Positions 1,847 to 17,907 of a stretch of 64,000 nucleotides of DNA are shown in pieces (positions within the stretch are counted from its first letter, which is position 1; each line of letters begins with the position of its first letter). The position numbers and the translations under genes were made by a program. The stretch is from Gemmatimonadaceae bacterium (GTDB lineage Bacteria > Gemmatimonadota > Gemmatimonadetes > Gemmatimonadales > Gemmatimonadaceae), in the NCBI GenBank assembly GCA_037721215.1, contig JBBJNV010000006.1, positions 1-64,000 of the forward strand, in the 5' to 3' direction. The notes beneath the pieces were generated by a model. That model was not told the DNA's origin, ran no database searches, and saw only the letters and a list, made by a program, of their open reading frames with translations.

Positions 1847-2149
1847 TCAGGCCCGCAAACCGGTATCCACGCCACATAGGATTTTCCCGGCTAAATTTTC
1901 CCAGAATTCATTCTGCAAGAACCAAAACGAAATGACAAAAGTCGCCGGAATAACTAAGAGCAGGTCCGCAAAAGAGGGGTGAGTCGAAGTAAATTGCGGA
2001 AACAAAATGACGATCGTCGAATAAGGGATTAACAGAAAAAGAGCTTGTCGAAGCGGGTGATACTGCTTCTGTTTTTGAAACAAGTAGGAAAAGCCGACTC
2101 CGAGGAAGAGAGTGATTATGAAGTAAAAAGCGGTGGGCCAGGACCTGAG
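1847..2149 (-). pseudogene. C-terminal fragment of a multi-spanning membrane protein
   Basis: The minus-strand frame ending at 1847 encodes about 95 very hydrophobic residues with three likely membrane segments, in AT-richer DNA than the neighbours. The upstream part of the same open frame (to 2269) is only the shadow of the adjacent IS3 transposase remnant, so the real gene was cut near 2150, where transposase sequence begins. I cannot name the family; a polysaccharide polymerase or flippase would fit the island but nothing proves it. Confidence 0.4.
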
Positions 2150-2545
2150 TTCGTCGCGAAGAAGCTCTCGGCCATCGAGTTGTCGTGAGCATCGCCGACC
2201 GAGCCCTTTGACGGCCTTACTCCCATTTCTCCACATCGTTTGCCGAAAGCAAGCGACGTGTATTGGCATCCGTGATCGGAGTGATGAATCACTTCAGCCG
2301 GCCGGCGTTGTTCGAGCGCCATCTCCAGCGCATCGAGCACCAGCGCGGTCTTGAGATGAGTCGCCATCGCCCAACCGACGATTCGCCGGCTGAATGCATC
2401 GAGGACGACCGAGAGGTAAAGAAATCCCGCCCACGTCGGCACGTAGGTTATGTCAGCCACCCAGAGCTGGTTCACAGCCTTCGCGGTGAAGTCACGATCC
2501 ACCAGGTCAGGAGCAGCCTCAGCTCGCGCTGCTCCTCCTTTCCCA
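2150..2545 (-). mobile_element. IS3-family transposase (OrfB) remnant
   Basis: Minus-strand translation gives an integrase-core segment with the IS3 DDE pattern: WVADITY (first Asp), HHSDHGCQYTS (second Asp) and NSMAESFF (Glu). The protein stops matching directly after ESFFAT, where it runs into the membrane-protein fragment, so its C-terminus is missing. The N-terminal part is also missing: recognisable sequence begins with APDLVDRDF. Just upstream, near 2573-2592, lies GTCCACGAAACGGGGCA, which resembles the terminal repeat of this kind of IS. The element is dead. Confidence 0.75.
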
Positions 2546-2572
2546 TTGTGAACCTCCTCTCTCAAAGAGTGA

Positions 2573-3148
2573 AGTGTCCACGAAACGGGGCAACTCCACA
2601 CGTAATATCACCTACATCAACATTGCCGGAACGCTCTACTATCTCTGCGCTTTCCTGGATGGCTACAGCCGGGTGCTGGTCCACTGGGAGGTCAGGGAAC
2701 GAATGAACTCGGCCGATGTGGAGACCATCGTGCAGCGCGCGAGAGAGAAGTATCCGGCCACGAGTCCACGGATCATTTCTGACAACGGTCGCCAGTTCAT
2801 CGCCAGGGATTTCCGGGAATTCATCAGGTCTCGGGAATGACACACGTGAGAACCTCGCCCTATTATCCCCCAGTCGAACGGAAAGATGGAACGCTGGGAT
2901 CAGACATTGAAGGTCACCACGATTCGGCCAAAGGCACCTGGCTCACTGGAAGAAGCGCGGCGGGTTGTGTCGCCGCCTTCGTCGAGTACTACAATACCGA
3001 GCGGCTTCACAGCTCGATCGGCTACATCACGCCGGCCGACAAGCTCAGAGGAACAGAGAACGAAGTATGGGAAGCCCGAGACCGGAAAGTCGAGGCCGCG
3101 AGGGAGCGGCCCGGGCAGCGCCGCGAACAGATGGCTGCCACAGTCTAA
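2573..3148 (+). mobile_element. second IS3-like transposase remnant, frameshifted
   Basis: Plus-strand integrase-core pieces in several frames form one broken transposase: TYINIAGTLYYL, then IISDNGRQF (second Asp), then YYP and SNGKMERW (catalytic Glu), then YYNTERLHSSIGYITPADK. The frame changes near 2830, again around 2870-2880, and again near 2970, so at least three indels are needed. Sequence upstream of TYI, including the first catalytic Asp, is lost. It lies head to head with the other IS3 remnant but is not the same element, since the two sequences differ strongly. Non-functional. Confidence 0.75.
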
Positions 3149-3389: not shown

Positions 3390-4592
3390 TCACTCCGATG
3401 CCGCCGGTCTCGAGCGCAGGACATTGCTGAGCGCGCGCCGTCCCAGCCGTAGCGGGCGACTGATCCACGCGAACGGGCCTGCACCGCTATCGTTTTCGGT
3501 CGGTACAAGGAATACGCGGACAAGCGTCGCGACCTGGTCAGTCCTGCGCTCGCGCGACCTTGCCCAGAAAATCAGAGGCCGCAGGCGAAAGTCGAGCCGG
3601 GCGGTCCAGCCGGCTCGCGAGTCTCGCTTCTCCGTCAATCCGAGCCTCATCGAGACCTGCGCGGCAAGCCGTGCGGCCTCCGGGTCGCTGAACGGGACAC
3701 GACTGACAAAGGGTCCATTCATTTCGCCGATGACATCCCGGGCTACACGAAGAGCCAGCTCGAGAATCCTTTTCGCATTCGCACGTTCCGCAAGCGCGAG
3801 AACAGCATCCGCCTCGCCGCTGTCGAGACGCTCGGCGAGCTGCACGATATCGCAGATCCAGCGAATTCGCTCCCACTCGTGCTTAGTTCCGTGCGCGCAG
3901 AGGAACATGAAGAGATGCGCCGGCCCAAGCACTCGCAACTCCGCGCCGGCGCAGGGAACGAGCCGTGAAGTGCTCCACAGCTCGGCCTCGCCAATGTCGA
4001 AGCGCAGGTGTTTCGAAAGGAGTGCCCAGTGCAGCTCTACCTTGATGTTCTCGCGCGAGAACTCGAGGGCGTGCTGATCGCTAATGAGTCGCCGCTCGCT
4101 CGAAGGCGAATAGTCGCGAGCGTAGCCGAGTGCGAGAAGGAGGTCCCGCGCGCTGGCGAGGTCCTGCTTCCTTACGAGAAGATCGATATCGGCAAAAGTG
4201 CGAAACGAAGGATTGCCATAGGCGGCGATTGCAACCGCCGGGCCCTTGAGAATGATCAGGTCGATCCGGCGATCTGTAAACCTGTCGGCGAGGTCAACGA
4301 GCACAAGCGTGCCTGAGAGGGCTTCCGTGCGCGCGTGCTGCTCGTGTACAGCTGCCCTTTTCAGAATGGGTTCAGCCAGCGTATCGCTGAAATGGGTACG
4401 CAGATTCGACATCACGACCGGCTCAACATCCCAAGCAGCGGCCTGCGAGAAGAACGCATCCCACGCAACGGCCTGTGAGAAGAACGCATCCCACGCCGTC
4501 ATGTCATCGATCGCCGCGCGGATGGCATGGAGGCGATCTTCCGGAAGCGGGGTGCGCGACAGCGCCAGGACTAGGTCTTCCACGGGCCTCAT
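3390..4592 (-). CDS. nucleotidyltransferase family protein (PF14907-like)
   Basis: A 400-residue protein with the nucleotidyltransferase core of the NTP_transf_5 family: LKGPAVA at about 115-121, then YGNPSFRTFADIDLLV with the metal-binding Asp135-x-Asp137 pair. In characterised relatives from lasso-peptide clusters (pseudomycoidin type), such enzymes act after an HPr-kinase-like kinase and add sugars to the phosphorylated peptide C-terminus; many others stand beside asparagine-synthetase-type and PqqD genes. Here it lies about 3.7 kb before the amidotransferase/PqqD/kinase cluster, with an IS256 remnant and Wzm/Wzt in between, so partnership is likely but not shown. Residues 33-52 contain a perfect 10-residue tandem duplication followed by a partial third copy. 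The ATG at 4592 is the natural start. Confidence 0.75.
   Translation of the reverse strand: MRPVEDLVLALSRTPLPEDRLHAIRAAIDDMTAWDAFFSQAVAWDAFFSQAAAWDVEPVVMSNLRTHFSDTLAEPILKRAAVHEQHARTEALSGTLVLVDLADRFTDRRIDLIILKGPAVAIAAYGNPSFRTFADIDLLVRKQDLASARDLLLALGYARDYSPSSERRLISDQHALEFSRENIKVELHWALLSKHLRFDIGEAELWSTSRLVPCAGAELRVLGPAHLFMFLCAHGTKHEWERIRWICDIVQLAERLDSGEADAVLALAERANAKRILELALRVARDVIGEMNGPFVSRVPFSDPEAARLAAQVSMRLGLTEKRDSRAGWTARLDFRLRPLIFWARSRERRTDQVATLVRVFLVPTENDSGAGPFAWISRPLRLGRRALSNVLRSRPAASE
4441..4500. repeat. 30-bp tandem duplication inside the nucleotidyltransferase gene
   Basis: Two head-to-tail 30-bp units (4441-4470 and 4471-4500) share the segment AGAAGAACGCATCCCACGC and differ at only a few bases. 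In the protein they give AWDAFFSQAV and AWDAFFSQAA, followed by another AWD. The unit length keeps frame, so the gene stays open. This is a recent slippage-type or unequal-exchange duplication. Confidence 0.9.
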
Positions 4593-5858: not shown

Positions 5859-6731
5859 TTGAGCGAATCATCACGTCCAGACGAGTCGCTACGAATTCGT
5901 GTTACGACTCCGCAGCAGGCACGCGCCCCGTTTCGAGGAGTAGTCTGTGATTTAAGGGCCAACTTCAAGCAAGCCAGTGTCCTGGCGTGGACTCTTTTCC
6001 GCCGGGATGTCAGTGCCGAACACCGTCAAAGTCTGCTCGGTTACTTCTGGCTGCTTCTGCCCCCGGTTGCGAGCACCTTGGTGTGGGTGTTCCTGACGAG
6101 CCAGAGGGTTATCACGATCGACTCGGCCGGTGTACCCTATCCATTATTCGCTTTGACAGGCACCGCTCTCTGGACCGCATTCAACAGCGGCGTTATGGGC
6201 ACGTTGACCGCGCTGTCTGGCGCCAGAATGCTTCTGCCGAAAGTGAACTTTCCGCACGAAGCGCTGGTCTACTCAGCGCTACTCAAATCCGGCCTCGATA
6301 TGCTGATTGCCGCCATCCTCGTGGGAGTTGCTGTGCTTCTATTGGGGTACAAGCTGAGGCCCGAGTTCGCCTTATTTTGTATGGCGCTCCTGATCAATGC
6401 GATCGTTGGCGCAGCCCTTGGACTTGTCGCCCTGCCTATCTCGGCCCTTTATCCGGACATTTCAAAGGGAATTCAGTTCGTTCTGCGGTTTGGTTTTTTT
6501 CTGACGCCCGTTATATACGCCGTGCCTGCAAGCGGGGCCGCACGAACGCTGATGCTTGCCAATCCCGTTACCCCGATAATCACCACCGGAAGGGCTTGGC
6601 TGACGGGGTCAAGCGAGGCCATGCCCGCAGCCTTCGCTGTTGTGAGCATCAGCAGCCTCGGTATCCTCCTTGCCGGGCTGGTGCTGTTCAAGATCGCACT
6701 TCCCTTCCTCACCGAGCGCTTGGGCTCATGA
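5859..6731 (+). CDS. wzm: polysaccharide ABC exporter, permease subunit (Wzm-type)
   Basis: A 290-residue ABC-2-type membrane protein with about six hydrophobic segments. The typical Wzm/TagG signature is present: LFRRDVSAEHRQSLLGYFWLL before the first helix, and a C-terminal FFLTPVIYA motif. It should pair with the following ATPase to export an undecaprenyl-linked polysaccharide (O-antigen or capsule type) across the inner membrane. It probably begins with TTG at 5859; the ribosome site is weak, so the start is uncertain. The stop overlaps the next ATG by four bases (ATGA), which implies translational coupling. The glycosyltransferases normally found next to such pairs are missing or truncated here. 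Confidence 0.85.
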   Translation: MSESSRPDESLRIRVTTPQQARAPFRGVVCDLRANFKQASVLAWTLFRRDVSAEHRQSLLGYFWLLLPPVASTLVWVFLTSQRVITIDSAGVPYPLFALTGTALWTAFNSGVMGTLTALSGARMLLPKVNFPHEALVYSALLKSGLDMLIAAILVGVAVLLLGYKLRPEFALFCMALLINAIVGAALGLVALPISALYPDISKGIQFVLRFGFFLTPVIYAVPASGAARTLMLANPVTPIITTGRAWLTGSSEAMPAAFAVVSISSLGILLAGLVLFKIALPFLTERLGS

Positions 6732-7987
6732 CTGAGCCAGCCCTCGCCGTGGCCGAGCATGTCTCCAAGAAGTTCTGTCGTTCACTTCACCGCTCTCTAT
6801 GGTACGGATTGCACGACCTGACATCGGCAATTCTCCCATGGCACCGTGGCAATATGGGCCGGGGACCAAACGACGAAGCCGCGCGACCGCTTCGCACCGA
6901 GGAGTTCTGGGCTCTGAGAGACGTCTCCTTCGAGTTGCACCGGGGTGATTGCCTCGGGGTCATTGGCCACAACGGTGCCGGCAAATCCACGCTAATCAAG
7001 CTGGTCAACGGGCTCATTACGCCAGACACTGGGCGGCTGACAACGCGTGGGCGGGTATGCGCATTGATCGAGCTCAGCGCCGGCTTCGACCCGATCCTCA
7101 CCGGGCGGGAGAACATTTACAATCAGGCCACGCTGCTTGGCTTCAGCCGGGAGGAAACACGACGCAAATTCGATTCGATCGTCGATTTCGCTGATATCGG
7201 TGAATTTCTTGACACTCCGTTGCGGAACTACAGCACCGGAATGGCTATGAGGCTCGGCTTTGCTGTCGCCGCACATCTGGAGCCCGACGTCCTGATCATC
7301 GACGAAGTGTTGGCAGTTGGGGATATATCCTTTCGATGCAAGTGCATGAATGCAATCGGCCAGCTCCTCCAGACGTCCGCAGTCATCTTTGTCTCTCATG
7401 CCATGCCGAACATCGTGCGCCTGTGCAATGAGCTGATCGTGCTGGATCGGGGACAAGTCACTTATCACGGCCGGGATCTGGCCCGGGGTATCGGGCAGTA
7501 TCAGGCGCTGTTCCAGGGAGCCCCTCAGAGCGTAAGCGGATCCGGCGAAGTCGTCGTCAGGAAACTGTCAATTGACAGCGGTGACTCGCATGCAGACCTG
7601 GGGGGAACATGCTCCGTTTCTTATGGAGCCGAGTTACGTATCACCGTGACGATCGATTCGATCGACCACCTGGAGGGAACACGAATCCAGTTTGTACTCT
7701 GGAACGCGGAGATGCTTCCCGTCCTTGACGTCGTTGCAGAAAACCTGGAAGGGACGTATATCGATCTGACAGAGAGCCGTCTGATGCAAGTGACCGCATT
7801 CGTGCCGCAAACGGAGTTGAATGGCGGCAAATATACATTAAGCATCATCGCTGAAGCTCGGGAGCACACCAGAACCTATTGCAGGCATGACAACGCCGCT
7901 TACCTCCAAGTGGATGCGGAGACAACCAGCGGTGCCCATTTCTTGACGGTGGCCGAATGGAGCCAGCAAAAGGCGACGGGCAGCTGA
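6728..7987 (+). CDS. wzt: polysaccharide ABC exporter, ATPase subunit (Wzt-type)
   Basis: A 419-residue ATPase. Walker A is GHNGAGKST (80-88), the signature is YSTGM (168-172), Walker B is DVLIIDE (187-193) and the H-loop His is at 224. After about residue 265 there is a further 150-residue beta-rich domain, as in Wzt proteins that recognise the modified end of the exported glycan. That domain suggests this system exports a terminally capped polysaccharide. The gene overlaps its permease by four bases. Codon use is similar in both genes, so they moved as a unit. A small frame at 7957 overlaps its end. Confidence 0.88.
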   Translation: MTEPALAVAEHVSKKFCRSLHRSLWYGLHDLTSAILPWHRGNMGRGPNDEAARPLRTEEFWALRDVSFELHRGDCLGVIGHNGAGKSTLIKLVNGLITPDTGRLTTRGRVCALIELSAGFDPILTGRENIYNQATLLGFSREETRRKFDSIVDFADIGEFLDTPLRNYSTGMAMRLGFAVAAHLEPDVLIIDEVLAVGDISFRCKCMNAIGQLLQTSAVIFVSHAMPNIVRLCNELIVLDRGQVTYHGRDLARGIGQYQALFQGAPQSVSGSGEVVVRKLSIDSGDSHADLGGTCSVSYGAELRITVTIDSIDHLEGTRIQFVLWNAEMLPVLDVVAENLEGTYIDLTESRLMQVTAFVPQTELNGGKYTLSIIAEAREHTRTYCRHDNAAYLQVDAETTSGAHFLTVAEWSQQKATGS

Positions 7988-8334
7988 GCGCTTCGTCCGC
8001 GCGGCGCAGGGTCATCTCGAGAGTCGCAGGCGACAATGCCTTGCGCCGCGTCGATGCGATTCGCCACGAGCTTCGATATGGACCTCCAGCCGCGTGGGGA
8101 CGTTGGAGGGAGAAGCGCCTGTCGGCACGGAAGCGGCGGATTCTCGCTGGCTGGCTGGAAAGTCATGGAGCGAACCCTCCTGAGGTCCTTCTTGGAGCTA
8201 ACGTCAATCGATCGGATGGAATTAGGAATCACGTTCTTGGCATTTTCAAGTATGCCCAGCGCGACCGCGCGGTTCGAGTAGCGCCGCAGTCCCGGAGTCA
8301 CCTTTTAATCGAAGATCTACGATGTGCGGAATAG
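7957..8334 (+). CDS. small protein, perhaps the N-terminus of a truncated glycosyltransferase
   Basis: A 125-residue frame begins at an ATG inside the end of wzt and runs into the asparagine-synthetase gene. Basic, Arg-rich sequence precedes a segment GANVNRSDGIRNHVLGIFKY that looks like the first Rossmann strand and loop of a family-4 glycosyltransferase. Such a gene is what usually follows wzt. The reading then ends abruptly where the next cluster starts, so I suspect a truncation at an integration or rearrangement boundary near 8.3 kb. It may also be a chance frame. If it is not a gene, 7988-8321 holds nothing else that I can see. Confidence 0.35.
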   Translation: MEPAKGDGQLSASSARRRVISRVAGDNALRRVDAIRHELRYGPPAAWGRWREKRLSARKRRILAGWLESHGANPPEVLLGANVNRSDGIRNHVLGIFKYAQRDRAVRVAPQSRSHLLIEDLRCAE

Positions 8335-10043
8335 CCGGCATACTCACCAAGAGCCGCGCCCCCGAAAAGGCGGCGTTGGAAAGAATGCTCGACCAGATCT
8401 CGCATCGGGGGCCCGACGGCAGAGGTATTTACACCGGGAGCAGGGCCGCTTTGGGCTGTTGCCGGCTCGCTTTCACGGACATCGCCGGCGGCACCCAGCC
8501 TATCAGGGACGAATCCGGCCAGCGCATGATTATCGCCAACGCCGAGATATACAACGCTCCCGAGCTCCGTTCCGCGCTGCAGTCGAAGGGCCATATCTTC
8601 TCCACCCGTTCCGACGTCGAGGTGATACTGCATCTTTTCGTGGAGCATGGCGCGGCTTGCCTCGCGCATTTGGAAGGGATGTTCGCCTTCGCCATCTGGT
8701 CCGAGCATTCCGGCGAGCTTTTCGTCGCCAGGGATCGCTTCGGGATCAAGCCTCTCTATTATGCCGATTCAGGCGAGGCCTTCGCCTTCGCATCAGAGCT
8801 GAAAAGCTTGGTAGCGCTGGACGGAGTGCGGAAGGAAGTCGACGCGAACGCGCTGGCTTCCTACTTCGCCACACTCGCGGTGAGCGAGCCATATTCGATT
8901 TTCAGAGGTATCGCAAAACTTCCGCCTGCGCATTACATGGTCGTCGGCGAGTCCGGGATGAAGATCGAGCGTTACTGGATGCCGCGGGCCGCGCCGCGAG
9001 AACATGGCGTGTCGCCGTCCGAGCTTCGCGACGTCTTGGCCGTGAGCGTCAGGCGCACCCTCATCTCCGAAGCTCCGCTGGGAGTGCTGCTGAGCGGCGG
9101 CCTGGATTCCACAATCGTCGCGGCGCTAGCGGCTAGAGAGCGTCCCGGTATTCCCACCTTCTCGCTCCGCATGGAGGACGCTGCCTACGACGAAGGCCCT
9201 TACAGCAGGGAGGCGGCCCGGAGCTTCGGGACGGAGCACAACGAGGTTACCGCCACCGTAGCTTCGATCGCGGACGCGCTCGAAGCCATCGGCGGGCAGA
9301 TCGACGAACCCTTCGCCGACGCTTCCTTCCTGCCGAGCTATCTGATCTTCCGCGAGGCCAGCCATAGCGTAAAAGGTTTGCTCACTGGGGAAGGGGCGGA
9401 TGAGCTCTTCGCAGGCAGCCCCTGGCACGCGCCCGGAGCTGCCGATGGCGCGATCGTTCCGGCGTCGCGCAGGATCTTTTCCTACGAGCAAATTGAAAGC
9501 TTTTGGCCCGACTCCCCAGGCGCGGCTTGGGAGAACTGCGAATACATCGCGGGGCTCGCCGCTGGCGATAGCTCCGACGCGATCGCGCGCGCGATCGACT
9601 TGGACCTCGGGCTATATCTCCCTTCGGACTTGCTCGTCAAGGCTGATCGCATGTCGATGCTGTGCTCCGTCGAAGCGCGGGTACCGTATCTCAACCCCGC
9701 GGTGGCGGATGCCGCGCTGGCGATACCGACAGCGGGCAAAATTTCGAGGGAGGTTAGGAAAATACCTTTGAAAGAAACCTTCAAGGATTTGATCCCGGAG
9801 TCTATCGTCGGGCGGCCAAAGCAGGGGTTCTCCATTCCGCTCGACCTGTGGCTTTGGCAGGACACGCCGCTCAAGGACCTCATTTATGGGGCGCTTTTCG
9901 ATCGAAACGCCAAATGCAGGCAGCTCTTCGATTACCGGCGGCTCGAGTTGATGCGGAGCGAGCACGAGAGGCTGATTGCGCTGCACGGCTACAGGCTCTT
10001 TACATTATATATGATGGAGCGTTGGCTCAGATCGTGGAACTAG
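8322..10043 (+). CDS. asnB: asparagine synthetase B-type amidotransferase
   Basis: A 573-residue glutamine-dependent amidotransferase. The N-terminal Ntn domain keeps Cys2 as nucleophile (MCGIAGI) and shows RLAFTDIAGGTQP (48-60); the NGE glutamine loop reads NAE (73-75), a Gly-to-Ala change. The ATP-pyrophosphatase domain has LSGGLDST (257-264). Typical AsnB makes asparagine from aspartate, while homologues in lasso clusters activate a peptide side-chain carboxylate to form a ring. The intact Cys2 argues for a functional glutaminase and so for amide formation from glutamine. It is directly followed by a leader-like peptide gene, and PqqD-type and HPr-kinase-like genes are close. Whether its substrate is free Asp, that peptide or a sugar acid cannot be told from sequence. 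Confidence 0.9.
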   Translation: MCGIAGILTKSRAPEKAALERMLDQISHRGPDGRGIYTGSRAALGCCRLAFTDIAGGTQPIRDESGQRMIIANAEIYNAPELRSALQSKGHIFSTRSDVEVILHLFVEHGAACLAHLEGMFAFAIWSEHSGELFVARDRFGIKPLYYADSGEAFAFASELKSLVALDGVRKEVDANALASYFATLAVSEPYSIFRGIAKLPPAHYMVVGESGMKIERYWMPRAAPREHGVSPSELRDVLAVSVRRTLISEAPLGVLLSGGLDSTIVAALAARERPGIPTFSLRMEDAAYDEGPYSREAARSFGTEHNEVTATVASIADALEAIGGQIDEPFADASFLPSYLIFREASHSVKGLLTGEGADELFAGSPWHAPGAADGAIVPASRRIFSYEQIESFWPDSPGAAWENCEYIAGLAAGDSSDAIARAIDLDLGLYLPSDLLVKADRMSMLCSVEARVPYLNPAVADAALAIPTAGKISREVRKIPLKETFKDLIPESIVGRPKQGFSIPLDLWLWQDTPLKDLIYGALFDRNAKCRQLFDYRRLELMRSEHERLIALHGYRLFTLYMMERWLRSWN

Positions 10044-10106: not shown

Positions 10107-10232
10107 ATGGACAAGAAAGCGAAAGGCGAAGCCAAGAAACCCGCCAAGAAACCAGCCAAGAAATACTCGGCTCCGATCGTTACTCGGCACGGCAATATCC
10201 GCATGATGGTGCAGATGTATTCGCCCAGCTGA
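10107..10232 (+). CDS. 41-residue lasso-leader-like peptide with almost no core
   Basis: A short gene 63 bp after the amidotransferase. The first 19 residues are Lys/Ala/Pro-rich, with AKKP repeats. Residues 20-36 then match the recognition pattern of lasso-peptide leaders, Y-x2-P-x-L-x3-G-x5-T-x: Tyr20, Pro23, Val25 in place of Leu, Gly29, Val35 in place of Thr. In a lasso precursor the core would begin after this point and be 15 or more residues long, with an Asp or Glu at core position 7-9. Here only MYSPS remains, with a C-terminal Ser and no acidic residue. Related HPr-kinase-like enzymes phosphorylate a C-terminal Ser. So the peptide may be a carrier or tag modified at Ser41, not a lasso. 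The ATG at 10107 has no clear ribosome site; an upstream TTG frame start at 10047 is less likely. Confidence 0.55.
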   Translation: MDKKAKGEAKKPAKKPAKKYSAPIVTRHGNIRMMVQMYSPS

Positions 10233-10591: not shown

Positions 10592-11326
10592 TCAGCGCTG
10601 TTTCCGCAAGCGGCGCTCGCCAGCTTCCGACACAAGGCGCCACATGGTTTCTGGCACTTTCTTGTCGGTGCGGGTCTGGCCTTTCGAGTGGCGCCTCCAG
10701 ACGTAGTAAATCTCCCCTGCCAGATATCTGTACCGGGTAATCTCGCTCATCTTGAGCCACAAGCTCTTGTCGTCCAGTGAACCGGCGCCCTCGTCGTAGC
10801 CTCCAACCGTTAGGGCTAGCGCGCGCCGCATCATGCAGCCGCCATGGTTAACCGTATCTTCGATCAGATCCCAGCTGCGCGTATGATCCTTGGCGACGAT
10901 CTGCGGGAAATCCAGCATGCGCCCACGATGGATCTCGATCGCCAAGATATCGCCATATGCCATTCCGATCTCGCTCTCTTCGTCTAGCACGGAGCACAGT
11001 CGCGAAAGATTGCGGGGCAAGAGCAGATCGTCGGCGTCGCAAGGCGTGACATAGTCCGCGCGGGCATGACGGAGCAGGAAATTGCGCGTGGCGCCCGATC
11101 CTTTGTTGCGGCGGTTCCGGAAGATCCGCACTCGCGGATCACGGCTGTAGCGGCGCAGGATCTCGAAGCTGCCGTCCGTCGAGCGATCGTCGGCGGCCAG
11201 CAGTTCGAAGGCCGGACCCGCTTGCGCGAGCACACTTTCAATCGCCTGCGGCAGGTATGCGGCAGCGTTGAAGACCGGCATGATAACGGCGATCCTGGGA
11301 CGGCTAACGGGGGGTTTTCGCGGCAT
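10592..11326 (-). CDS. family 2 glycosyltransferase
   Basis: A 244-residue GT-A enzyme. The first strand and helix read IAVIMPVFNAAAYLPQAIESVLAQ, followed by LLAADDRSTDGS and the metal-binding CDADD. The likely acceptor region contains WDLIEDTVNHGGCMMRR and a late W-R-R motif. No membrane segments are visible, so it works in the cytoplasm or at the membrane face. The ATG at 11326 is preceded by AGGA at good spacing; the open frame to 11431 is probably not translated. It is transcribed with the PqqD gene and is divergent from the kinase gene, which suggests that one control region serves both. Confidence 0.85.
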   Translation of the reverse strand: MPRKPPVSRPRIAVIMPVFNAAAYLPQAIESVLAQAGPAFELLAADDRSTDGSFEILRRYSRDPRVRIFRNRRNKGSGATRNFLLRHARADYVTPCDADDLLLPRNLSRLCSVLDEESEIGMAYGDILAIEIHRGRMLDFPQIVAKDHTRSWDLIEDTVNHGGCMMRRALALTVGGYDEGAGSLDDKSLWLKMSEITRYRYLAGEIYYVWRRHSKGQTRTDKKVPETMWRLVSEAGERRLRKQR

Positions 11327-11409
11327 TTTGATCCTGAGCGGATGCGGGAAGCCTCCGAGCTTGAAGTAAACTACTGGAGCCGCTCCGCCGGCGGGCGTAA
11401 AGTATAGCG

Positions 11410-12489
11410 ATGCCGTCGAGCGCCCGTACATACCGCTTCGGAAACAAGCTCGTCCAAATCAACATCGACGGCAGGCGCCTGGAGCGCTTTGTATCACAGC
11501 AATGGGCGCCTTTCGATGCAGGAGCGGTTCACGCGAAGGCGCCGCATGCTGCTATCAACATCAGGCAGGAAGAGCGCGGCGATCTGCCGTGCCACGCGGA
11601 ATTCGAGCAGTGCTTCTACGATAACGAAGTTACGGTGATCGCTGATGCGCAGAAAACCTTGGCCTGCTACTTCGGGCGGCCCCCTTCGAACGCATTCCTG
11701 ACGTTGAAGGCCGATATGGAGCCTTCGTTCGCGCACTACTACGTGATCGAGCCGCTCCTTCTCTACCTGCTGCGGCGCTTGAATGTCTTACAGCTTCACG
11801 CCGCGGTCCTGGAGCGGAATGGCAAGGGCATCCTGATCGCTGGAGCCTCGGGTACCGGCAAGTCGACCGCGAGCGCCGCGCTCGTGGGGGGCGGCTACAG
11901 CCTGCTTTCCGATGACAGGGCATTCCTGGCCAAGGCAGGGCGGCAGACCCGCTTGTACGCGAACGATCCGCGCATCTCGCTCAGCGACCAATCGCGGAAG
12001 CTCTTCTCCCCTCTCGGCTTCCTAAGGCCGGCTGAGATGCGCCGGCGCGGCAAAAGCGGCAAGCGGATCTACTCGCCGATCCGCGGGAGGGAAGTTGGGA
12101 GTGGGTCAGTGAAGCCACATCTCCTGATCTTCACGGAGCCTCGTCGCGGGAAAGCGACGGTTTTGCGGCCCTTGCCCAAGGCGGAAGCGCTCGCGCGGCT
12201 GCTTGAGCGCAAGCCGATTGAATATCCCGTGATGCTAGCGGACGGAGCGGGGCTTACAAACGAGCTCGAGCTATGCGGAAGGCTCGTGGCGAGCGCCCGG
12301 ACATTCGCCATGAATTTCGCGGGCAACCCTGAAGAGCTGCCGTCCTTGATCGATTCCCTCGCGGGCGAACTTTCCGGACGCGGCGCTGGCCGGAGCCCGG
12401 CGTCCAAGAAGAAGGGAGCGAGCGCGGGGATTCGAAAGCGCGAGCCAGGTTCGCGGCCGCCGCGCGGCCGAAAGCCTTCAGGCCGCTGA
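11410..12489 (+). CDS. HPr kinase-like Ser/Thr kinase
   Basis: A 359-residue protein whose C-terminal half carries the HprK-type kinase core: LHAAVLERNGKGILIAGASG with Walker A GASGTGKS at 145-152, and LLSDDR at 165-170. It has no N-terminal HprK regulatory domain of the Firmicute type. Relatives in peptide clusters (paeninodin family) phosphorylate the C-terminal Ser of a precursor peptide, and the peptide encoded nearby ends in Ser. The last 45 residues are a basic, Gly/Arg/Lys-rich tail that is unusual and possibly unstructured. The gene is convergent with the epimerase gene, 21 bp apart, and divergent from GT2. Kinase assignment is firm, the substrate is inferred. Confidence 0.8.
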   Translation: MPSSARTYRFGNKLVQINIDGRRLERFVSQQWAPFDAGAVHAKAPHAAINIRQEERGDLPCHAEFEQCFYDNEVTVIADAQKTLACYFGRPPSNAFLTLKADMEPSFAHYYVIEPLLLYLLRRLNVLQLHAAVLERNGKGILIAGASGTGKSTASAALVGGGYSLLSDDRAFLAKAGRQTRLYANDPRISLSDQSRKLFSPLGFLRPAEMRRRGKSGKRIYSPIRGREVGSGSVKPHLLIFTEPRRGKATVLRPLPKAEALARLLERKPIEYPVMLADGAGLTNELELCGRLVASARTFAMNFAGNPEELPSLIDSLAGELSGRGAGRSPASKKKGASAGIRKREPGSRPPRGRKPSGR

Positions 12490-12510
12490 GCGACTTCCCG
12501 TCCGGCATAT

Positions 12511-13476
12511 TCAGGATGAGGCTTCTATTATCCCCATCAGCGTCTCCCGCAAGGGTATGGAGGGAGAGAAGCCTAGCAAAGAGGCGAGCTTCGAGATATC
12601 GGGCGAGCGCTTCGGGAAATCTTCCAAGCCTCCCGGCATGCATTCGGCATAGGGCAGCGTCACGATACGCGAGCTGCTGGCGCAAAGCTCGCGTATCTGG
12701 CGCGCGAGCTCGAGGATCGAGATCTCCAAAGGATTGCCGATGTTGTAAACCTGGCCGAAGGCCTCCTGCCGCTCCGCTAGATCTGCCAGCGCCTCGACGC
12801 ACTCGCGGACGTCGAGAAAGCAGCGGGTTTGCGAGCCGTCGCCGAAAATCGTCATGTCCCCGCCTGCGCGCGCCTGGCGGACCAAGGTCGGCGCCACCAT
12901 GCCGTAATCGGATGATTGCCTGGGACCGATGATATTGAAGAAGCGGGCGATTACCACGGGAAGGCCGTACTGCGCGTGGTAAGAATAGGCCAAGTGCTCG
13001 CCGGCGGCTTTGCCGGCGGCGTAAGCCCAACGCGGGTGGGCGGGCGGACCGATCTCGATCGGATCGCTCTCTCGCGACTTCCTGGAAACGCTGCGCCCGT
13101 AGACTTCCGAAGAAGACGCGAACAGCGCGGGCTTGCGATGTTCGCGGCAGAGGCGGAACACGGCTTCGCAGCCGAGCAAGTTGCCGCGCAGCGTGCCGCT
13201 GGGGTCGGCCAGTATCTTCCTCACGCCGACGGCCGCCGCCAGGTGGTAAACGTAATCCGATCGCGCGACGAGTCTCCCGGCCAGATCCTCGTCCAAGACC
13301 GATCCGATCGTTATCTCCAGCTTCGGATCTTCGGCGACGGCCCGCAGGTTCCCGGCGCTCGAAGAGGACAGATCGTCGAGCGCCATGACCGCGTGGCCGC
13401 GCGCGAGCAGCGACTCGCAAAGGTGGGAGCCGATGAAACCGCAGCCGCCAGTCACTAGAATTTTCAATCGAGGCAT
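12511..13476 (-). CDS. NAD-dependent sugar epimerase/dehydratase (extended SDR)
   Basis: A 321-residue enzyme starting MPRLKILVTGGCGFIGSHL, with the GxxGxxG nucleotide motif at residues 10-16. It has the catalytic Ser in SSSEVYG and the YAAGK Tyr-x3-Lys motif. Later segments (FNIIGPRQ, GDGSQTRCFLDV) are typical of nucleotide-sugar epimerases and dehydratases such as UDP-glucuronate decarboxylases. It probably makes an activated sugar for the nearby glycosyltransferases. The exact reaction is not predictable. The ATG at 13476 follows CACAGG; an upstream Met at 13521 lies before the conserved start and is unlikely. It is divergent from the GT4 gene. Confidence 0.85.
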   Translation of the reverse strand: MPRLKILVTGGCGFIGSHLCESLLARGHAVMALDDLSSSSAGNLRAVAEDPKLEITIGSVLDEDLAGRLVARSDYVYHLAAAVGVRKILADPSGTLRGNLLGCEAVFRLCREHRKPALFASSSEVYGRSVSRKSRESDPIEIGPPAHPRWAYAAGKAAGEHLAYSYHAQYGLPVVIARFFNIIGPRQSSDYGMVAPTLVRQARAGGDMTIFGDGSQTRCFLDVRECVEALADLAERQEAFGQVYNIGNPLEISILELARQIRELCASSSRIVTLPYAECMPGGLEDFPKRSPDISKLASLLGFSPSIPLRETLMGIIEASS

Positions 13477-13545
13477 CCTGTGAATGCCGGAAGTGCCTTC
13501 CGGCATCCGGCCAAAGTTCATAGCATCGCATCTCGGCGTTCTGAT

Positions 13546-13557
13546 CTATACATATAG
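13546..13557. promoter_or_regulatory. AT-rich dyad in the divergent epimerase/GT4 interval
   Basis: CTATA-CA-TATAG forms a 12-bp dyad in otherwise GC-rich DNA, between two divergent genes. It may be overlapping -10 elements or a regulator site. No matching -35 box at the usual spacing could be fixed. Confidence 0.25.
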
Positions 13558-13658
13558 CTTCCTACGGGGAATGTTAAGGCTATTGATAGAAAATCTCGGG
13601 GTATTGAACCATCCTGAAACGAGGCCTCCCATGAGCCGAAAGGCATCCCGCGATATAT

Positions 13659-14726
13659 ATGGCGCGACATAAACCCCGCTTGGTCTTCAACCTTCATCCG
13701 CGCGTATTCGGCGGCACCGAGTCGTTCTTTCTCAGGCTGGCGGTCGCGCTACGGAAGGATTTCGCTCCCGTTTTCATCTCCCCGCGTTTGGGGCCGGCCC
13801 TTTCCCGCGCGGCGAGCTTCGGTTTTGAAACCGCCCTTGTGCGCGAGGGGCGCGGGTCCGCCCGCAAGCTACTCCAGATCGCGCCATCGCTCCTGCAATC
13901 CAACTACTATCTGCCGTTCATGGCGATGGCGGGCAAGGAATTGGGCGTTCCGCATGTTTGGAGGGTGGGCGGCCATCCTGACTTGGTTTTGGCGCATCTC
14001 TCCGCGCCAGATAGGGAGGCTTTCCTGAAGATGATGTCGCTCTTGTCGGACAAGATTATATGCGCATCGAGGTTCATCGCCAGGCCCTTCGCCGCGGCCG
14101 GGCTCGAGGATGCGGCGGTGATCAACAACGGAGTGAGCCTCCCATCGCGTGCGCTGCCTGCTTTTCGCGAAGGGAACCCGTTCAAAATAGCGATGGTCGC
14201 CCATCTGCACCCGCAGAAGCGCCATGAGGATTTCATCCGCGCGGCGGGGGAGCTTCTCCGGGGACCGCGAATGTACGAATTCGTCATTTTCGGGAATGCG
14301 CTAGCCGATCAGCGGACGTATGCCGCGGGCTTGAAGAAAATGGCTCGCGAGCTGGGGGCGGGCGGCAAAATCAAGATCCGCGCTTTCAGCGGCGATGCGT
14401 CCGCCGCGTTGGCGGATTGCCACGCCTTCGCGCTGCCTGCCGAAAACGAGGGCGCCAGCAACGCGATCTTGGAGGCCATGGCTTTGGGCCTGCCTGCGGT
14501 CGTGGCGCGCAGCGGAGGCAATGCCGAGCTTGTGGCGCACAGGAAGACGGGACTGATCATCCCGGCGCGGGAGCCGCGTGCATTGGTGGCGGCAATCGAG
14601 GTCCTGGCCAGCAATCCCGGGCTTCGACTCCGGATCGGGCAAGCCGCCCGCGAAGCGGCCAAACGGAGCTTCTCTATCGAAGCGTCAGCCGCGAGATACG
14701 CGCGTCTCTACGCCTCGCTCTTATAG
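13659..14726 (+). CDS. family 4 glycosyltransferase
   Basis: A 355-residue GT-B enzyme. The N-terminal domain begins PRLVFNLHPRVFGGTESFFLRLA, and the C-terminal donor-binding domain has IAMVAHLHPQKRHEDFIRAA and the GT4 signature PAENEGASNAILEAMALGLPAVV, with the presumed catalytic Glu residues. Function: transfer of a sugar from a nucleotide donor to a glycan or other acceptor, cytoplasmic side. The 3' end overlaps the convergent gene on the other strand by 19 bp. The start codon at 13659 follows an AT stretch without a clear ribosome site. Confidence 0.85.
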   Translation: MARHKPRLVFNLHPRVFGGTESFFLRLAVALRKDFAPVFISPRLGPALSRAASFGFETALVREGRGSARKLLQIAPSLLQSNYYLPFMAMAGKELGVPHVWRVGGHPDLVLAHLSAPDREAFLKMMSLLSDKIICASRFIARPFAAAGLEDAAVINNGVSLPSRALPAFREGNPFKIAMVAHLHPQKRHEDFIRAAGELLRGPRMYEFVIFGNALADQRTYAAGLKKMARELGAGGKIKIRAFSGDASAALADCHAFALPAENEGASNAILEAMALGLPAVVARSGGNAELVAHRKTGLIIPAREPRALVAAIEVLASNPGLRLRIGQAAREAAKRSFSIEASAARYARLYASLL

Positions 14727-16922: not shown

Positions 16923-17274
16923 AGTTCAAATGGGCATGGTTCGAAGCGGCGATGCTCGCCGCCCGCCCGCAGCCTCCAGACTCGGGTAGTTTTTACGCCC
17001 TTGGCGGATGGGCTGTCGTTTCCGCATTGCACTGGCGGGCGGATGCCGCTTATCCATTAGGATGGAGGCGCCTTCAGCCAGGCCGCAATTTCTCCTAATT
17101 ATAATTATCTAAACTCGCAAGCGCTGTTTGCGGAACAAGAAAACCTTGAGCGAGCTCCGGGCTATTTCCTATAGCATGTGCTTCGCCCGCGAGCTTCCGC
17201 CGGCGCGCCGCAACGATAACTTCGGATGCGGAGGACCGGATCGCTATGGATAATCCCGAAAACTTCGAGGCGAG
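16923..17274. other. non-coding interval with an AT-rich palindrome
   Basis: No gene is visible on either strand; the short frames do not resemble proteins. It lies between the minus-strand GT2-TPR gene and the plus-strand methyltransferase remnant, so it should hold promoters for both. Its most distinct element is the 12-bp perfect palindrome at 17096-17107 (listed separately). Confidence 0.45.
17096..17107. promoter_or_regulatory. 12-bp AT-only palindrome TAATTATAATTA
   Basis: A perfect palindrome made only of A and T inside GC-rich DNA, about 175 bp before the GT2-TPR start. It could be a regulator site or a melting region for the minus-strand promoter. No -35/-10 pair could be set with confidence. 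Confidence 0.3.
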
Positions 17275-17907
17275 ATGAAACCTGAGATTGCCGCCTATCT
17301 GCGCTATCCGCGCTGCGAGGGAGAGCTTAGCTGCGAGCGGACAGATATCGGCAATGGCCGCCTTAAATCGGGCGCGCTGGAGTGCCGTTCCGGCCATTCC
17401 TTCCCGATCGCGGATTACCTGCCGACATTCTCGCCGGCGCTGGGATACGTGGGCGCCTTCGAGTTCCTGTGGTCCACGCCTTCATGCGACTTGACGGTAG
17501 CACACGGGGATACTTTTGTACGCGAGCTCACCGAGCGGGAGTTCTCGCAGCAGACCCGGCGGGCAGCCTCGCGGGTAAACTGGTGCTGGACGCGGGGTGC
17601 GGAGGGGCGCGCTTCGCGGAGTATCTCGCCGGGTTCGGCGCGGAAGTGATCGGCGTAGACATGGTTGAGCGCGCGCTGCGGGGCGACATCCAGCGCAATC
17701 TGGCCAGAGAACCTGAATTTTTTCCAGGTGAACCTTTTCGACCTGCCCTTCAGGGAAGGCGTCTTCGACTTCATCTATAGCCTCGGCGTGCTGCACCATA
17801 CGCCGGATTGCGAAAAAGCCTTCAAAGGGCTCGTGCGGCATCACGGAAAACAGGATGCCATCAATGGAGCCCGAGTCGTGGAGCGGAAGTATGTGTGGAT
17901 TAAATAG
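17275..17907 (+). pseudogene. SAM-dependent methyltransferase, frameshifted and truncated
   Basis: Three frames together read as one class I methyltransferase with a short zinc-ribbon-like (Trm112-type) N-terminus. Frame one gives LKSGALECRSGHSFPIADYL; frame two, from about 17555, gives GKLVLDAGCGGARFAEYL and VIGVDM (SAM-binding motif I and following strand); frame three, from about 17708, gives NLFDLPFREGVFDFIYS and GVLHHTPDCEKAFKGL. Indels near 17555 and 17708 break it. After GLVR, about 17838, homology stops and a short unrelated tail leads to a stop at 17907, so the C-terminal half is gone. Such enzymes often methylate glycans or lipids in surface-polysaccharide clusters. Confidence 0.75.

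Follow-up and report, generated by a model that had tools for sequence, protein, structure and literature searches.

The closest described systems are the kinase-tailored lasso peptides (Bsf, paeninodin and pseudomycoidin; PMC10368454, PMC9266682) and the linear polyphosphorylated peptides (LPP). Among the former, BsfK phosphorylates Ser3 of the BsfA core and is stimulated by B1 (PMC10368454), the paeninodin kinase modifies the linear precursor at its C-terminal Ser, and pseudomycoidin requires PsmN, which carries a nucleotidyltransferase annotation, for the addition of hexose to phospho-Ser. Mutational studies have demonstrated that lasso kinases need a His-Lys-Asp-Asp motif. LPP, reported by Popov et al. 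in 2026 and stated to be restricted to Bacillota (PMC13381572), draw on the same gene types without a cyclase, are encoded in glycosyltransferase-rich loci and possess a kinase that polyphosphorylates core Ser3. Here we describe a short peptide gene and its neighbors within a stretch of 64,000 nucleotides (the window, meaning the whole of the DNA analyzed), and compare this locus with both systems. Feature coordinates are collected in Table 1.

Table 1 Features of the peptide locus in the window and of related precursor loci
Feature	Position	Strand	Basis
41-aa precursor peptide: Lys-rich N-terminus, lasso-type leader, core MYSPS	10107..10232	+	ORF, NF033528, leader matrix
Predicted RRE-binding leader segment YSAPIVTRHGNIRMMVQ, -17 to -1	10164..10214	+	spacing as in BsfA (PMC10368454) and aligned relatives
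Core MYSPS; candidate phosphosites Ser3 (10221-10223) and C-terminal Ser5 (10227-10229)	10215..10229	+	alignment
PqqD-type discrete RRE (lasso B1-like), 91 aa	10243..10518	-	PF05402 E 1.5e-19
HprK-like peptide kinase	11410..12489	+	Hpr_kinase_C E 6e-8, just under cut-off
NTP_transf_5 nucleotidyltransferase	3390..4592	-	PF14907 E 1.1e-53
Glutamine-dependent asparagine synthase-like amidotransferase	8322..10043	+	MCGIAG start (Cys2), TIGR01536
Polysaccharide-type ABC exporter: Wzm-like permease (5859-6731), Wzt-like ATPase (6728-7987)	5859..7987	+	context
Glycosyltransferase family 2 (-), sugar epimerase/dehydratase (-), glycosyltransferase group 1 (+)	10592..14726	mixed	Pfam
Loci of second cyclase-free precursor type	L181:13897-14340, L182:9358-9567, L183:16498-16737, L184:17601-18002, L185:13396-14031

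A short peptide gene with a lasso-type leader

The peptide gene translates as MDKKAKGEAKKPAKKPAKKYSAPIVTRHGNIRMMVQMYSPS and ends in a TGA stop; the N-terminus of the product is Lys/Ala/Pro-rich and of low sequence complexity, and no obvious ribosome-binding site precedes the ATG. The lasso leader pattern described in the initial annotation (Tyr20, Pro23, Val25, Gly29 and Val35) is present, with Tyr20, Pro23, Val25 and Val35 at positions -17, -14, -12 and -2 and the RRE-binding motif YxxPx[LVI] spanning -17 to -12. With Tyr20 as -17, the leader ends at Gln36 and leaves a core of only five residues, MYSPS, which carries Ser at +3 and +5. The earlier description of the peptide as strictly leader-only is therefore not supported. 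Thr is the usual residue at position -2 of lasso leaders. The window peptide features Val at this position, and every lasso cluster in which Duan et al. found Ile or Val at -2 contains a kinase or phosphotransferase gene (PMC10368454).

In a whole-library scan, the NCBIfam model NF033528 ('lasso peptide') matched the peptide with 20.9 bits (E 2.6e-4), below its cut-off of 33, and NF033521 ('lasso leader') gave 12.6 bits, below its cut-off of 19. A position matrix derived from the leaders of 21 aligned relatives (positions -19 to -1, with the window peptide left out) was used to score all 85,186 six-frame 19-mers of the 64 kb window and placed the peptide leader at rank 1, with a score of 14.7 compared to 6.1 for the runner-up; a small HMM built from the same relatives' leaders did not separate the peptide and returned only E 0.8. 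Judged by the sequence matrix, the leader match exceeds chance and we regard the observation as real. Dozens of precursors of the same phylum carry leader motifs of this family. Searches for homologues of the peptide in 99 relatives and in plasmids yielded none above chance, and consequently revealed no sign of selection on the peptide. Three weak matches (L003-L005) were discarded, as they were either at chance level or contained in-frame stops.

Candidate phosphosites were assigned by alignment to BsfA Ser3, to the C-terminal Ser of paeninodin and to the Ser+5 column of cyclase-free relatives. Ser3 of MYSPS lies 19 residues from the leader Tyr, the same distance as in BsfA, while Ser5 is C-terminal, as in paeninodin, a precedent that lends support to the C-terminal Ser as the candidate site named initially. 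Core Ser3 appears at least as likely to be the kinase target.

The PqqD protein, the kinase and the surrounding locus

The pqqD gene lies 10 bp from the peptide gene in convergent orientation on the opposite strand, and the two can therefore not share a transcript. Comparison of its product with PDB sequences revealed a match to TbiB1 (E 1.2e-8), and the predicted structure (pLDDT 94.5) returned the TbiB1-leader complex as top Foldseek match (TMq 0.83); according to this model, the protein is a lasso-type RRE, nearest in fold to TbiB1. The leader contacts described for LppB, namely Asn33, Tyr60, Asp70, which fixes the Tyr, and Phe74 (PMC13381572), map to N36, Y63, D73 and F77 of the window protein, which is, as in LPP, a discrete RRE of the YxxP type. 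Opposite the first aromatic residue of the leader, LppB, TbiB1, the window PqqD and eight of nine compared lasso RREs have Asp, and the leaders that belong to the RREs with Asp mostly carry Tyr and in one case Trp; the same position is occupied by Gln in PbaB1 (Trp leader) and by Thr in the L106 RRE (Phe leader). The contact residue tracks the leader aromatic and, together with the TbiB1-like fold, the retained D73 and the leader motif, supports the pairing of leader and PqqD protein put forward in the initial annotation, with binding itself inferred from these residues. Plasmid searches with PqqD retrieved lasso clusters and a single locus from Tistrella, and scans of genome contigs with PqqD and with HprK returned no relatives. 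The Tistrella stretch (L119:6758-8187, Tistrella mobilis plasmid pTM1) encodes two W..P peptides of about 50 residues that end in SPS and GGS, together with PqqD, HprK-like and O-GlcNAc-transferase-like genes, and holds neither B2 nor a lasso cyclase.

The kinase proposed as a nearby partner was indeed recovered 1.2 kb from the peptide gene. The HprK-like protein matched HPr kinase structures with E 3e-5, and its residues H130, K151, D168 and D169 are invariant in the alignment, so that the His-Lys-Asp-Asp motif is kept as in LPP kinases. Both the kinase and the RRE tree reach too deep for the window proteins to be placed; in the former, the nearest rows by path were kinases of cyclase-free operons, with no supported grouping with them. 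Plasmid searches with the window kinase found nothing. HPr-rel-A systems (TIGR04352/TIGR04353), which likewise combine an HprK-like kinase with PqqD, were considered and rejected, with scores of 58.6 of the 200 bits needed for the kinase (TIGR04352) and 18.6 of 35 for PqqD (TIGR04353). The kinase ends in a basic low-complexity tail (window 12379-12489) that recalls the N-terminus of the peptide; the kinases aligned with it stop short of this tail.

The NTP_transf_5 gene is located 5.5 kb from the peptide gene, beyond the ABC exporter and amidotransferase genes, and among the compared loci it is lasso cluster L082 that encodes the nearest counterpart of its product (E 1.2e-32). The same gene type is found in kinase-tailored lasso and LPP clusters, and we count it as a putative member of the system by family and proximity only. 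The peptide, pqqD, HprK and NTP_transf_5 genes do not form a single operon. Fragments of integrase-type transposases, apparently broken insertion sequences, adjoin the NTP_transf_5 gene on both strands (window 2116-3148).

With a Wzm-like permease (NF050109, E 5.6e-9), a Wzt-like ATPase recognized from P-loop motifs in its sequence, and glycosyltransferase and sugar epimerase/dehydratase genes, the surroundings are read as a surface-polysaccharide locus. At window 17095-17907, short overlapping open frames resemble a broken methyltransferase gene.

Absence of a lasso core, B2 and cyclase

The window peptide retains 12 residues after the leader Gly, compared with 21-48 in some forty related lasso precursors, and MYSPS holds no acidic residue and does not reach the Asp/Glu at +7 to +9 through which a lasso ring closes. 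A hidden core was likewise absent: reading through the stop and the -1 frame each add nine residues, while the +1 frame adds 18 that run antisense to the end of pqqD and lack an acid at core positions 8/9, and a frameshifted core was therefore rejected. In none of these frames was a plausible core recognized.

No match to the B2 peptidase (PF13471) exceeded the cut-off in the genome, which is 96.6% complete. The amidotransferase next to the peptide gene, regarded as a partner in the initial annotation, scored 445 bits with TIGR01536 (cut-off 267) and, at 234 bits, stayed below the 525 required by the lasso cyclase model. It keeps Cys2 and finds its best match in the ordinary asparagine synthase family, whereas the cyclases of related lasso clusters with a readable start begin with M/V-S/T-G and lack Cys2. 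It was rejected as a lasso cyclase, is not supported as a partner of the peptide, and probably belongs to the polysaccharide locus. As no lasso cyclase of the Asn-synthase type was found at the locus, a result that covers the window AsnB, and as no B2 exceeded the cut-off in the genome, we concluded, in agreement with the initial annotation, that a lasso cannot form.

Cyclase-free operons with tiny cores in the same phylum

A kinase-led search recovered ten relatives of the kinase gene from the same phylum. Nine of them lie in operons with PqqD, B2 and NTP_transf_5 (L103, L104, L106 and L172-L177), and the tenth (L105) is accompanied only by a 50-aa peptide. A profile for Asn-synthase-type cyclases, which did find the cyclases of lasso clusters L076 and L108, detected none in L103-L106 and L172-L177 and was likewise negative for ten additional HprK loci (L178-L187), several of the contigs being short. 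Six loci encode one to four precursors of 26-38 residues upstream of the kinase, with the conserved leader F[VT].P.L..EA.L..LTL and cores of 4-17 residues (among them STII, SAGIPG, SGNGIQL, NPVTSQTV, QAVTSRPE, LPQTSRLIT, AGAISSIR and GLQVSQGPRG). Ser occupies +5 or +1 in most of the cores, and none is composed like a lasso core. In L172 (7946-11499), four tandem precursors combine near-identical leaders with different cores, which is the usual RiPP pattern. An NCBIfam scan of nine of these precursors matched no model; the precursor operons apparently represent an undescribed RiPP family.

Near-coreless leaders thus recur in the phylum, in cyclase-free operons whose kinases are among the nearest relatives of the window kinase and which share the same partner families and the presence of Ser or Thr in the core. 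The differences concern the leader and the gene order: the window peptide carries Y..P.V..HG, scores -11.2 with the matrix of the tiny-core family (rank 1718) and does not show its leader motif, and the tiny-core genes form single operons with a B2 peptidase, neither of which applies to the window. By the sequence of its leader, the window peptide stands outside the tiny-core family as a parallel with a lasso-type leader. Short peptides beside similar genes, for which the initial annotation proposed to search, exist in the form of cyclase-free precursors with HprK, PqqD and NTP_transf_5 in the same phylum, but not as close homologues of the window peptide.

A second type of cyclase-free precursor, W[VI].P.V..LPRLT.LTL, was observed beside HprK and PqqD (Table 1); its cores are Gly/Ser-rich with STVF/STVCP-like ends. 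The lasso cluster L088 (7539-11515) features two precursors and two cyclase genes in tandem.

Comparison with known systems and alternative explanations

The window shares with LPP a YxxPxV leader, including the His and Ile that follow Tyr at +8 and +11, a discrete RRE, an HprK-like kinase, an NTP transferase, glycosyltransferase-rich surroundings, a candidate Ser at core +3 and the absence of B2 and cyclase from the locus. Within the LPP consensus YxxPxVLxHQxIxFETxxS, the window peptide agrees at Y, P, V, H and I and departs at L, Q, F, E and T and in the spacing of the Ser; the distance from Tyr to Ser3 is 19 compared with 18 in LPP, and the core comprises 5 residues compared with 45 in LppA. 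No SpI-like leader peptidase was found among the scanned window genes, S26 peptidases being present only on other contigs, nor was an MsbA-like exporter found nearby, which leaves the window system without a peptidase of its own. On account of the missing SpI and MsbA-like genes, the partial leader consensus and the core length, we did not file it as LPP, although by analogy it would work like one. With the kinase-tailored lasso systems, it has in common the spacing of Tyr(-17), Pro(-14), (-12) and (-2), the Ile/Val(-2) subtype, a B1-type RRE, the His-Lys-Asp-Asp kinase, the NTP transferase and Ser at core +3 and at the C-terminus; it differs in lacking B2 and a lasso cyclase and in a core below ring length.

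These likenesses could also be the legacy of a decaying kinase-tailored lasso cluster, in which a rearrangement removed core, B2 and cyclase and left the remaining genes as relics. The leader is of the lasso-cluster kind and the peptide has no close homologue, related lasso precursors retain far more residues after the Gly, B2 is gone, and the genes are scattered and inverted, with transposase fragments at 2.1-3.2 kb; moreover, the peptide of lasso cluster L082 ends in IYGPS, compared with MYSPS here, as an internal core deletion would leave. However, PqqD, HprK and NTP_transf_5 are full length with their catalytic or contact residues kept, and cyclase-free operons with tiny cores are maintained elsewhere in the phylum, so that we regard decay as a serious alternative, though as less likely than not. 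That sequencing or assembly error cut the core of a true lasso precursor would agree with the 18 open codons of the +1 frame past the leader, but these codons overlap the 3' end of pqqD in antisense and encode no acid at core +8/+9, and a genome with no B2 over the cut-off and a locus with no lasso-type cyclase render such an error very improbable.

Two further readings question the peptide as a substrate. A functional leader that occupies the PqqD protein as a decoy or regulator would be consistent with a peptide that is almost all leader and with a convergent layout permitting antisense coupling; as the peptide has Ser at both of the sites that known systems phosphorylate and a kinase gene lies nearby, which points to a substrate instead, we consider this very unlikely. 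A chance ORF unrelated to PqqD could account for the low-complexity N-terminus, the sub-threshold NCBIfam scores and the weak score with the small HMM, but the first rank with an independently trained matrix and the exact leader spacing 10 bp from a lasso-type RRE gene speak against it, and we consider it very unlikely.

Proposed pathway and implications

The interpretation that the gene encodes a precursor which matures into a linear, kinase-tailored RiPP with a mini-core, in an LPP-like system outside Bacillota, is in our estimate evenly balanced between right and wrong. According to this precursor model, the cleft of the PqqD protein would bind the YxxPxV leader, with Tyr20 directed to Asp73 and Pro23 and Val25 in two pockets, and would present the tail of the peptide to the HprK-like kinase, which may phosphorylate Ser at core +3, the C-terminal Ser at +5, or both. 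The NTP_transf_5 protein could then place a sugar or nucleotide on the phosphate; glycosylation had been suggested from the outset, and the nucleotidyltransferase-linked precedent in pseudomycoidin is in line with it. As no cyclase acts, the product would be linear, and as no dedicated leader peptidase is encoded nearby, the leader would either be cut by a general protease or retained. The product may serve at the cell surface.

More tentatively, and with the balance tilted against it, a class of kinase-tailored RiPPs without a cyclase may exist outside Bacillota, with genes that encode little more than a leader. Its products would be linear tags of 4-17 residues, phosphorylated and perhaps also glycosylated, with a link to surface polysaccharide, and the window would hold a form that has dispensed even with a leader peptidase of its own.

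RiPP mining relies on core and cyclase, and would discard a leader followed by only five residues as a truncated gene; here, the kinase and carrier genes beside the peptide are intact, and whole operons with such precursors, of which those scanned match no NCBIfam model, recur in the phylum. If such mini-peptides are phosphorylated, the LPP idea would reach beyond Bacillota, and they would provide tiny, easily synthesized substrates for probing HprK-like peptide kinases and NTP_transf_5 enzymes.
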